From Nitrospira sp. (GTDB lineage Bacteria > Nitrospirota > Nitrospiria > Nitrospirales > Nitrospiraceae): a stretch of DNA of 33,403 bases. Under the pieces are notes generated by a model. That model was not told the DNA's origin. It worked only from the letters and a program-made list of their open reading frames with translations, and ran no database searches. The DNA lies in contig JARFPM010000035.1 of NCBI GenBank assembly GCA_030444405.1, forward strand, positions 1-33,403. Direction: 5' to 3'. Positions 12,557-17,428 of this stretch are shown one piece after another. Positions within the stretch are counted from its first letter, which is position 1. Each line of letters opens with the position of its first letter. The translations under genes and the position numbers were made by a program.

Positions 12557-12894
12557 CTACCGTCTTGGACGAATACGTGCTGTCTTATCCCGCATTATTC
12601 ATGAACGCTTCTACTGCAACCGCCGATACGCCGCTGCGACAAGCCTGGCCGTGGTTGTCTCGCGGCCAGGCGGGCAGGCTCGCCCCTCGTGACTTCGACA
12701 TACTGTTTCAAGTATGCCTCGGTCTCTCAGGGCTCCGCGTGCCCGTCTCGCATGGCGTCTTGGCGGTTTCGTCACGAACCATCATGAATAATGCGGGTTA
12801 TCACAACTCACGTCGCGACATGGATATCCATGACCGATTCTGACAAAAAACACAAGATGCTGGCAGCGCGCTAGGCGTGAGAGCAGGGGGAGCG
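12557..12894. other. Intergenic stretch with a GC-rich stem-loop
   Basis: No supported gene. GCCTGGCCG (12643-12651) and CGGCCAGGC (12663-12671) form a perfect 9-base stem with an 11-base loop. No T-run follows on either strand, so it is not a standard terminator. A run of six T residues lies on the minus strand about 50 bases past the stop of the 66-residue membrane gene (12895). A plus-strand frame at 12565-12843 has unnatural composition and was not accepted. Confidence 0.4.
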
Positions 12895-13115: not shown

Positions 13116-13436
13116 CTAGGTTAGGAGATACGCAAGCCCTGCCCCCCCGATGAGAAGGAACATCAGCCAGCGGAGCAATCCTTCTCGCGCATCTGCTTGA
13201 GCTTCGTCGATTTGATCCTTGAGGGCGGGCTGTGATCGGAGATACGTATCGATCAAGTCCTTGGCTTCATTCAAACCAATGTTCTGCTCCAGGCGAACAA
13301 GCTTAATGGCCTCGATAACCTGGCCTTTCCAAAGTGCCGTCACAGCCGATCGTGAGAGTACAGGGTACAGCGAAGGAGCTGTCGAGACTTCAGGCATTGG
13401 AGGCTGAAGAGATGAAAGAGGCATCGTCTGAAACAC
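13116..13436 (-). CDS. Membrane-anchored protein with an L7/L12 C-terminal-like domain
   Basis: 106 residues. The middle (about 34-72: ALWKGQVIEAIKLVRLEQNIGLNEAKDLIDTYL) resembles the C-terminal domain of ribosomal protein L7/L12, where an IxxIKxVRxxTGLGLKEAKDLV-type pattern is typical. A C-terminal transmembrane helix follows (LLRWLMFLLIGGAGLAYLLT). Short membrane proteins with this domain occur in many bacteria without a known role. The N-terminal 30 residues are Pro/Ser-rich. It appears to be the first gene of a pair with the 66-residue membrane protein. Confidence 0.6.
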   Translation of the reverse strand: MFQTMPLSSLQPPMPEVSTAPSLYPVLSRSAVTALWKGQVIEAIKLVRLEQNIGLNEAKDLIDTYLRSQPALKDQIDEAQADAREGLLRWLMFLLIGGAGLAYLLT

Positions 13437-14687: not shown

Positions 14688-15068
14688 TCAGATGGCGGAC
14701 AGGCTATGTTCGCTGCGAAGCGCGGTGGTGTTGCGGGAGGTCGCCAATCCCTCTTCTTGTTGCTGACGAAACGCGGATATGGCGATTGTTTTCTCGATGT
14801 CTGTAAGACCGGGAACTTGAGAAGCGGCACGCTCGAACTCAAGCACAGTCACTTTTCTGTGACGACAAAGCCATTGAATAAATGGTCTCCACACTGGCTC
14901 GAAGCCATGAAACCACCAGCCTGGGGCCGTCTGTCCTTCTGAGTCTCTCATGGATAACACAGGCAAGGACTGAATCTGTTTCACCGGGCTACAGTCAAAT
15001 TGATAATCCCCAGGCGTCGTCGGTTGATGGAAAATAAAAATTTGTTTTTTCTGCTTTAGCTTATCCAC
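14688..15068 (-). CDS. Orphan 126-residue protein behind a sigma-54 promoter
   Basis: GTG start (15066-15068) with GGGGAAA a few bases upstream. The N-terminus is basic (MDKLKQKKQIFIFHQPTTPG); the middle is protein-like (PGWWFHGFEPVWRPFIQWLC, then RHRKVTVLEFERAASQVPGL and TDIEKTIAISAFRQQQEEGL). There is no signal peptide or known motif. A good -24/-12 promoter lies 50 bases upstream and a sigma-54 activator gene is the next gene upstream on the same strand. I infer that this gene is expressed under that activator. The function is unknown. Confidence 0.5.
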   Translation of the reverse strand: MDKLKQKKQIFIFHQPTTPGDYQFDCSPVKQIQSLPVLSMRDSEGQTAPGWWFHGFEPVWRPFIQWLCRHRKVTVLEFERAASQVPGLTDIEKTIAISAFRQQQEEGLATSRNTTALRSEHSLSAI

Positions 15069-15117
15069 AATTTCCCCATCCCGTTACGTACCGCACATTG
15101 AATTGTTTCAAGACCCA

Positions 15118-15134
15118 AGCAATTCAGGTGCCCA
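15118..15134 (-). promoter_or_regulatory. Sigma-54 (-24/-12) promoter of the orphan gene
   Basis: On the minus strand the sequence reads GGGCAC-CTGAA-TTGCT. The GG and GC dinucleotides are exactly ten bases apart, and GGCAC plus TTGCT match the core of the sigma-54 consensus (TGGCAC-N5-TTGCW). Transcription would start near 15107, leaving a leader of about 40 bases before the GTG at 15068. Confidence 0.65.
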
Positions 15135-15162
15135 AGAGATAATATTTCTATTTGATGATGTG

Positions 15163-15180
15163 TTGTGAAATATTTCACAA
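15163..15180. promoter_or_regulatory. Perfect 18-base palindrome upstream of the sigma-54 promoter
   Basis: TTGTGAAAT immediately followed by ATTTCACAA. Its centre is about 65 bases upstream of the predicted sigma-54 transcription start. It could be an activator or repressor site; the position is somewhat closer than typical enhancer sites. Confidence 0.45.
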
Positions 15181-15511
15181 ACGGGCAGGAGCTCGATTGT
15201 AAGAAATTGTCTTCATTTGTATTATTCTGGGACAGTGATCTCATTCAAGCAAAGCTCCCCTCTCCTGATTGACCAGGCACCTCATTCAAGAAAGGTAATT
15301 GAATTGCCAAGAATTTTGAAAATCCGACGCTCATTTTTCACCAAGCGAAATTAATAGGATTCGTCGCAAGATGTTCTATCATGGGACACCACGAACCAGT
15401 TGTTGGCATGTGAGATGGTCCCTGCTCTGAGTTGATCTGATAAGTTCACCACATGGAATACGAATCATTGTGATGGCGCACCTAAATATTGCGGCAAAGT
15501 CTCCTCTTTAG

Positions 15512-15532
15512 AGTGTTTCATAATGAAACACT
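15512..15532. promoter_or_regulatory. Dyad with TGTTTC-N5-GAAACA core (site 1)
   Basis: Arms AGTGTTTCAT and ATGAAACACT are perfect inverted repeats around one A. The core TGTTTC-ATAAT-GAAACA is shared with the dyad at 15706-15726. It lies mid-gap, about 415 bases upstream of the predicted sigma-54 start. Confidence 0.5.
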
Positions 15533-15705: not shown

Positions 15706-15726
15706 GCTGTTTCACAGCGAAACAGC
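15706..15726. promoter_or_regulatory. Dyad with TGTTTC-N5-GAAACA core (site 2)
   Basis: GCTGTTTC-ACAGC-GAAACAGC, perfect 8-base arms. It begins four bases after the stop codon of the sigma-54 activator gene, and on that strand CTTTCTC follows, so it may also work as a weak terminator hairpin. The core is the same as in site 1. Confidence 0.5.
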
Positions 15727-15730
15727 TCTG

Positions 15731-16825
15731 CTAGACCGATTGAGGGATCCGATGTGCTGGCTCCAAGGAAAGGTCGACCGGTGTGAGTTCACGCGATATC
15801 CCGCCCCCACTCTCCTGAGGGGAGATTTTTTTCGATTTCTTAGACTTGGTTCTGGAGCCGAATGAAAGCGGAGTCGCGGTTGGCACAAATTTTTCAAGCC
15901 CGTAGGCCCGCAGTTTGCGGTACAATGTCGAGCGGCTCACCTTCAAGTCTCTGGCCATCCTGGTCATGTTCCCTCGATGCAAACTGATTGCCTTCACCAA
16001 CAGCTCCATCTCAATCCGGCGATGAGCCTCCCGCAGGGAATCCAATGAATCCACTGGTTGGGGTTCTTCACCAGCCAGGTCTAAGTCATGCGGAGTGATC
16101 TCCATCCCATCCGCCATGACCACCGCGCGTCGGACCCGATTGCTTAACTCGCGCACATTTCCCGGCCAGGAATAGGAACGCAGCACGCCGACTGCTTGGG
16201 GCGTATAGCCTCGGATCGGCTTGCGATAGGTCACGGCGGCCTGCTTCAGAAAGACCATTGCCATGAGTAGGGTGTCCTCGCCCCGGTCCCGCAGAGGTGG
16301 CAGGTGAATATGCAACACGCCGAGCCGATAATAGAGGTCTTCCCGGAAGAGATTCTTGTCGATTGCCTTTTTTAGGTCGACATTGGTCGCCGCAAGGACA
16401 CGTGCATCGACATGAAGCGTCTCTTGCCCCCCGACTCGTTCGAACGTGCCTTTCTGCAAGAACCGAAGCAGTTTGACCTGCAGAGCTGGCAGCAGATCGC
16501 CGACCTCATCAAGAAATAATGTGCCGCCGTCCGCCGCTTCCAGTTTGCCCTTCTTTTGTTGGACGGCACCCGTGAAGGCGCCACGTTCATGACCGAACAG
16601 TTCAGATTCCAATAAGGTTTCGGGGATGGCTCCGCAATTGATCGGCACGAACGGCCCGCGCTTCCGGAGGCTTCGCTCATGGATCGCTTGCGCGGTCAAT
16701 TCCTTTCCCGTGCCGGTCTCGCCGGTAATGAGCACCGGCATCTCGGTCTTCGCCATCTTGCGAACCAAGTCAAAGACTGCGGAGATGGCGGGACTTGCTC
16801 CCACCATTTCGTCCACGGTTTCCAC
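15731..16825 (-). CDS. Sigma-54-dependent transcriptional activator without receiver domain
   Basis: About 364 residues: an AAA+ domain followed by a Fis-type helix-turn-helix. Walker A is GETGTGKE, the sigma-54-contacting GAFTGA is intact (GHERGAFTGAVQQ), Walker B is GGTLFLDEVGDL, and WPGNVREL marks the end of the AAA+ part. The helix-turn-helix is GNMTRMARDLKVSRSTLYRKLRAYGL, followed by a Lys/Ser-rich tail of about 50 residues. The AAA+ part begins within ten residues of the start, so there is no receiver, GAF or PAS domain, as in PspF-type activators that are controlled by a partner protein. I prefer the GTG at 16823-16825, five bases after GGGGAGG; an in-frame GTG is at 16829-16831. No receiver sequence continues upstream. 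Confidence 0.9.
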   Translation of the reverse strand: METVDEMVGASPAISAVFDLVRKMAKTEMPVLITGETGTGKELTAQAIHERSLRKRGPFVPINCGAIPETLLESELFGHERGAFTGAVQQKKGKLEAADGGTLFLDEVGDLLPALQVKLLRFLQKGTFERVGGQETLHVDARVLAATNVDLKKAIDKNLFREDLYYRLGVLHIHLPPLRDRGEDTLLMAMVFLKQAAVTYRKPIRGYTPQAVGVLRSYSWPGNVRELSNRVRRAVVMADGMEITPHDLDLAGEEPQPVDSLDSLREAHRRIEMELLVKAISLHRGNMTRMARDLKVSRSTLYRKLRAYGLEKFVPTATPLSFGSRTKSKKSKKISPQESGGGISRELTPVDLSLEPAHRIPQSV

Positions 16826-17428
16826 AAACACCTCCCCGTGTCGACTACTACGATGACATCCCTGAGATCTTGCTTTTCATGAGGTATCTGTCCACTATGC
16901 GATCGGACATGGCCATGAGCTCAACAGATTCCAATGGCCTTATTCCCAATCTGAATATGGGTGATAAAATGAGTCATGCCGTGAAAGTTGCGACGATGCT
17001 GCCCGCATACGGCTCTAATTTGTACCACGGATAGGCACTATGGCTCTAGTCAAAATACTTGCGTTGTTCTACATATCACTCAGAATCTCAGGATAACGTC
17101 TCGTCTTGATACATAACATTGAATAGAAGGCAGTGATTAGTGCCTAATAGCCCTATTTTGTGTTTTTAGTTACGGATATATGGCTCCAGCTATGTCTCTG
17201 GCTGAGATCTGGCTCTTATATTTGACCATAGCACAGGGAGTTCTGTGCCACCCTCGAACATAGATCTATTGATTCGCGAGCGATTTGTCCAGGATCATGA
17301 GACGAAGAGGCAGATGTACGCGACCCGTTGTGCTGAATACGTGAGGATTGGTCCATCGACGGGGAAATAGCGCACGCGCCCTGAAGTCGATCCTGGATTC
17401 GCAGCTTCCTACATACGTGGATAATTGC
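16826..17428. other. Divergent intergenic region between activator and TerC genes
   Basis: About 600 bases with no supported gene, AT-richer around 17040-17220. GCACAG-ggagtt-CTGTGC (17231-17248) is an inverted repeat with 6-base arms. I see no clear -24/-12 motif and no tRNA-like fold here. The frame of the TerC gene is open back to 17348, but the conserved start is at 17429. Confidence 0.4.

Follow-up and report, generated by a model that had tools for sequence, protein, structure and literature searches.

A predicted local sigma-54 switch in Nitrospira: a conserved promoter, enhancer-like palindromes and a receiver-less activator beside a small genus-restricted gene

What drives a short gene of no recognised family that is preceded by a sigma-54-like box and, one gene further upstream on the same strand, by a sigma-54 activator? 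The locus lies in Nitrospira, a genus of key nitrite oxidisers in which manipulation is difficult; the literature searched yielded no paper on their sigma-54 circuits. The window analysed here, a stretch of 33,403 nucleotides, is contig C1 of a 3.46-Mb Nitrospira sp. genome (G000) that is 99.6% complete and contains one rpoN gene; the relatives with the same locus are also Nitrospira, with few exceptions in the naming of records. The best reading of the locus is that a Nitrospira-specific small protein, here called WWF, is driven locally by a receiver-less, PrsR-derived enhancer-binding protein.

The putative promoter, GGGCACCTGAATTGCT at positions 15118-15133 of the minus strand, has exactly the sequence given in the first-pass annotation: a -24 element GGGCAC and a -12 element TTGCT, with ten bases between the GG (15132-15131) and the GC (15120-15119), 50 bp before the gene of a 126-aa protein. 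Its predicted +1 lies near 15107. It differs from the consensus TGGCAC-N5-TTGCW by one mismatch, the first base of the -24 box, which is T, A or G in the orthologs. By itself the motif was discarded as evidence, as it occurs at chance level: at one mismatch or fewer, the whole genome has 112 matches versus 125 for the reversed control. The significance of the promoter thus comes from its conservation among orthologs. The box is found in all 36 WWF loci compared, with TTGC intact in every one and GG in 35, and the single locus with a damaged GG also lacks most of its intergenic region; a separate set of named Nitrospira contigs gave the same answer (27/27). The earlier proposal had named loss of the GG/GC pair in relatives that keep the gene as the result that would count against it, and 35 of the 36 loci retain both dinucleotides. 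Over these loci the box holds 1.59 bits/column (1.95 at the GG and GC positions), compared with 0.25 in the 30 bases downstream and 0.73 in the 45 bases upstream. Because the identity of the WWF proteins to that of the window falls to 26% and the leader lengths vary, this pattern argues for constraint on a regulatory site and not for mere close kinship.

The conserved upstream flank (15135-15180) is A+T-rich and could be a bending site or a site for another regulator. It includes TTGTGAAATATTTCACAA (15163-15180), a perfect palindrome that fits the CRP-type pattern TGTGA-N6-TCACA and of which close relatives keep only the core. The intergenic region between the activator and the WWF gene has no Rfam match.

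The WWF gene (14688-15068, minus strand) starts with a GTG at 15068. Its product has the conserved core PxWWFxxFxPxWxP...EF...IEKxIxxSxF, with 12 invariant columns over 20 sequences that are 26-67% identical to the protein of the window, and dN/dS is mostly 0.17-0.42 (0.64 in one pair), in line with purifying selection; WWF is therefore a real protein. The gene occurs in 38 of 77 Nitrospira genomes; in a sample of 295 genomes covering the phylum, none of the 134 genera besides Nitrospira has it. Membership of a known family was rejected, as no Pfam match above noise was obtained with 20 WWF proteins, no NCBIfam match with the three tested, and no plasmid-borne relative was found; the same Pfam and NCBIfam comparisons gave no PEP-CTERM sorting signal. 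An AlphaFold model of poor quality (mean pLDDT 57, reaching 73-82 only in a helical core) predicts, at low confidence, a small helical protein and yielded no function. Two other candidates were dismissed: a degenerate winged helix akin to a small HTH protein of loci L142 and L143 (hhalign probability 0.4%), and a DnaA-box-like sequence, TGTGGATAA, at the start codon, which is simply the start GTG-GAT-AA and varies in relatives.

The activator gene (15731-16831, minus strand) is the upstream neighbour on the same strand. It encodes a Walker A motif GETGTGKE, an intact GAFTGA loop and a Walker B motif FLDE, and its Pfam match (Sigma54_activat, AAA lid and the Fis-type HTH_8) begins at residue 9. 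No N-terminal receiver, GAF or PAS domain was detected by Pfam or in the ortholog frames, and the stop-to-stop frames of the orthologs span at most about 411 aa, which leaves no room for a sensor domain. The earlier description of an activator with an intact GAFTGA and no sensory domain was thus confirmed, and the architecture, an AAA+ domain with Walker A/B and GAFTGA followed by a C-terminal Fis-type HTH, is that of the PspF-like class. The closest family by sequence is another one. The best NCBIfam match is PrsR (TIGR02915), at 383.1 bits and over profile positions 139-444 only; the absence of a receiver keeps this score below the curated cut-off of 502.6, and the protein is not a PrsR member. 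The PspF model scores 275 bits (cut-off 443.55). The nearest receiver-bearing relatives are true PrsR proteins (575-638 bits), and in a maximum-likelihood tree 20 receiver-less activators form one clade (100/100) that joins the PrsR group with a support of 91/92, a node at which long branches were flagged. The clade probably shares ancestry with PrsR and seems, judging from sequence comparison, to have shed the receiver of a PrsR-type regulator. The window genome itself holds no PrsR-grade relative of the activator, the next-best matches being 48-49% identical. Since a receiver is lacking, control must come from the level of the activator or from a partner acting in trans, and by analogy the protein may be governed as PspF is by PspA or HrpS by HrpV, the trans control found so far in receiver-less activators (PMC7057263).

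Activator and WWF gene are syntenic, separated in the window by a gap of about 660 bp, and they occur together. Among 77 genomes, 34 have both and 34 neither, while nine are discordant (34/4/5/34; Fisher p 3.6e-12, a value overstated because related genomes are not independent). One of the nine, G064, is explained by an assembly gap. An activator-family gene without a WWF gene was seen in five genomes, some of these being paralogs or lying at contig ends, and a WWF gene with its promoter and no activator in three (G003, G061 and G068).

Within the gap lie enhancer-like palindromes, a feature additional to those noticed in the first-pass annotation. The 3.46-Mb genome has exactly two copies of the pattern TGTTTC-N5-GAAACA, each of them in the gap that separates activator and WWF gene, and the reversed control gave none. 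One, site A (TGTTTCATTATGAAACA, 15514-15530), is located 397 bp upstream of the promoter; the other, site A' (TGTTTCGCTGTGAAACA, 15708-15724), is equally perfect, stands just past the activator stop codon and is present in this genome only. Two weaker copies are on the minus strand: site B (TGTCCCATGATAGAACA, 15372-15388), with an A-B spacing of 142-143 bp in the nine genomes where both matched at these places, and site C (TGTCCCAGAATAATACA, 15218-15234), about 84 bp before the -24 box, whose asymmetry makes it a candidate copy of the same site type with weaker support. In 79 genomes the extended palindrome occurs at most once per genome, mostly at the WWF locus, and site A is placed at -378 to -407 relative to the promoter in 27 loci, with one further locus, in G088, having it at -173. 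Of the 30 loci that carry the activator and extend far enough upstream, 28 contain site A, and all three genomes without activator lack it, G064 being set aside since a stretch of N in the record breaks up its activator; Fisher's test by hand gives p of about 0.002, weakened by shared ancestry. Site A is the probable main enhancer site of the WWF promoter. Its form, TGT-N11-ACA, fits the TGT-N10-12-ACA usual for sigma-54 activators, which commonly have several sites per target (PMC6615313). Enhancers usually lie 100-250 bp from the promoter (PMC6615313, PMC7057263); site A, at about 390 bp, is beyond this range and site C is near the classical distance.

Natural variants support a link between activator, site A and promoter. 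In LK70 (G047, L084), where the activator-WWF gap has shrunk to about 227 bp, site A has been lost and the promoter is a decayed GGACAC..TTGCC. In RSF12 (L092, G346) activator and site A are both gone, and the promoter and site C remain, a site pattern shared by G068. In G059, G088 and G074 a C39 peptidase gene comes between activator and WWF gene, all on one contig and strand, and in G059 and G088 the palindrome, the promoter and the WWF gene stay together downstream of the C39 operon. Other products of this operon are a protein with glycine-rich repeats and several small double-glycine proteins; the operon was rejected as a target in the window genome, from which it is absent.

Very probably, then, the neighbouring activator drives the WWF gene locally through sites A-C and sigma-54. 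The enhancer-binding protein, lacking a sensor domain, would bind the palindromic sites of the gap of about 660 bp, with B and C bound less strongly than A; it would loop to the RNA polymerase-sigma-54 held at the 15118-15133 box and use ATP to open the promoter, so that transcription would start near 15107 and cover the WWF gene alone. A solid prediction, for a genus that has received little study, is that the locus is a dedicated switch of a fairly ordinary kind, in which a receiver-less and probably PrsR-derived activator serves a single conserved target nearby, and not a new kind of system. The idea of a self-contained unit is supported by synteny, by co-occurrence and by the palindromes that track the activator. 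Its limits are G003, G061 and G068, and two other genomes in which the palindrome occurs at an exopolysaccharide locus, so that in some species the unit is not strictly self-contained.

That the box is a chance match and no promoter at all is very improbable: the chance-level genome frequency and the GGG with which the -24 box begins would allow it, but they are hard to reconcile with a box retained in 36 of 36 loci whose proteins have diverged so far, whose leaders differ in length and whose downstream flank is poorly conserved. A real promoter might instead be served mainly by a different enhancer-binding protein, such as PrsR or another response regulator, with the neighbour being auxiliary or devoted to other genes. 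The three genomes that keep the promoter without the neighbour, two of which (G061 and G068) also keep site C, mean either that another activator can act there or that the promoter is a recent relic; the genomes hold many further sigma-54 activators, and the palindrome occurs once at the exopolysaccharide locus of G062 and of G073. Site A, however, is lost where the neighbour is lost and kept where an inserted operon separates the two genes (G059, G088, G074), and the window genome has nothing closer to PrsR than the 48-49% matches, which makes a principal role for another activator unlikely.

The palindromes, for their part, could belong to a different DNA-binding protein, as a repressor or autoregulatory site. 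The distance of site A is unusual, A' is found at the 3' end of the activator gene itself, and binding of the activator to these sites is predicted from sequence; but the presence of the palindrome follows that of the activator across genomes, and the order of activator, palindrome-like site, sigma-54 box and target recurs at loci L150-L152, so this assignment is quite unlikely. Compatible with local activation, and possible though not favoured, is that WWF chiefly regulates the activator as trans feedback, as in the PspA-PspF or HrpV-HrpS pairs, and is not an effector. The trans control of the known receiver-less activators (PMC7057263), the tight pairing and the small helical protein predicted at low confidence would suit such a role; against it, no sequence similarity to known anti-activators was found with Pfam and NCBIfam, and each gene occurs without the other, the activator family in five genomes and WWF in three.

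Local activation by the neighbour, the preferred reading, has its nearest parallel in PrsR, a response regulator that acts in PEP-CTERM/exopolysaccharide systems. It has been proposed to control PEP-CTERM genes that form units of one gene behind long intergenic regions, with a 17-nt motif upstream and, some 70 nt ahead of the start codon, a -24/-12 box (PMC1569441); pepA has been shown to be RpoN-dependent (PMC9850573). PrsR is the nearest characterised family by sequence and a tree neighbour of the activator, and the WWF locus resembles this layout in its long intergenic region, upstream motif, -24/-12 box and predicted single-gene unit. The differences are that the activator has no receiver domain, that its recognition helix reads RSTLYRKL and not RPTLYQLL, that the main site TGTTTC-N5-GAAACA is farther upstream, and that WWF is not a PEP-CTERM protein as far as Pfam and NCBIfam show. 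PspF and HrpR/HrpS share the sensor-less combination of AAA+ and Fis-type HTH domains (PMC7057263) but are not the closest by sequence, the activator having probably arisen from the PrsR side. The sites resemble those of the NifA/FhlA type (PMC6615313) in form and in their number per target, yet have longer fixed arms, AGTGTTTC/GAAACACT, and a more distant main site.

The probable PrsR ancestry of the activator and the location beside secreted-protein/C39-peptidase operons in some species loosely suggest a cell-surface or matrix-linked task for WWF, or feedback regulation. WWF is a lineage-specific protein with a possible place in a floc or biofilm surface programme, and its locus offers a clean, testable unit of activator, enhancer, promoter and target, of which several species are natural knock-outs.

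Similar arrangements with other targets are headed by receiver-less paralogs of the activator (73-80% identity): at L150 and L151 the target is a C39-peptidase operon preceded by AGGCATTTGGATTGCT, and at L152 it is another small gene, preceded by GGGCATCTGAATTGCT. Judged by the order of the genes and by inspection of the motifs, the unit seems to be a module that has been used more than once. A more speculative and rather unlikely reading is that a Nitrospira-specific PrsR branch lost its phosphorylation switch and became a movable local module, made up of the activator, a distant enhancer of three sites, a sigma-54 promoter and a target that varies. Such a module would serve the WWF gene, operons for secreted glycine-rich proteins and C39 peptidases, and perhaps genes for exopolysaccharide, and the WWF protein would be its missing trans partner.

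Several further observations were made at these and other loci. The operons at L150 (189-6048), L151 (3-5802) and L107 (703-5509), which adjoin paralogous receiver-less activators or the WWF gene, carry genes for a secreted protein with glycine-rich repeats, for small double-glycine proteins and for a stand-alone C39 peptidase, as well as one whose product may be an outer-membrane protein; they resemble a secreted-fibre (Fap-like) system, and no Fap model matched. At L142 (2640-2852) and L143 (1693-1923) a small winged-helix-like protein (CPELTWNQVFLAIDHLSR) comes directly after other paralogous activators, followed at L142 by an apparent outer-membrane efflux gene. The exopolysaccharide-locus palindrome lies between a regulator gene and an RfaH/NusG-like gene with a polysaccharide-export cluster (L062 1501-1521, G062:C12; L070 1501-1521, G073:C2); it is AGTGTTTCATTGTGAAACACT in G062 and differs by one base in G073, and no clear -24/-12 box was seen nearby.

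In the window genome, AGTATCATTATGAAACA is found at L184 (1994-2190; G000:C66:4393 and following), 178 bp before AGGCATTTAACTTGCT and a small gene pair, the second member zinc-ribbon-like, which is a possible second target of the window activator or of a paralogous one. Closer to the WWF gene, a small protein encoded at 13116-13436 on the minus strand matches the C-terminal domain of ribosomal L7/L12 below threshold and adjoins the WWF locus in many Nitrospira. The region 12570-12800 contains inverted repeat-like arms, CCCGCATTATTCATGA near 12590 and TCATGAATAATGCGGG near 12785, possibly an interspersed repeat element.
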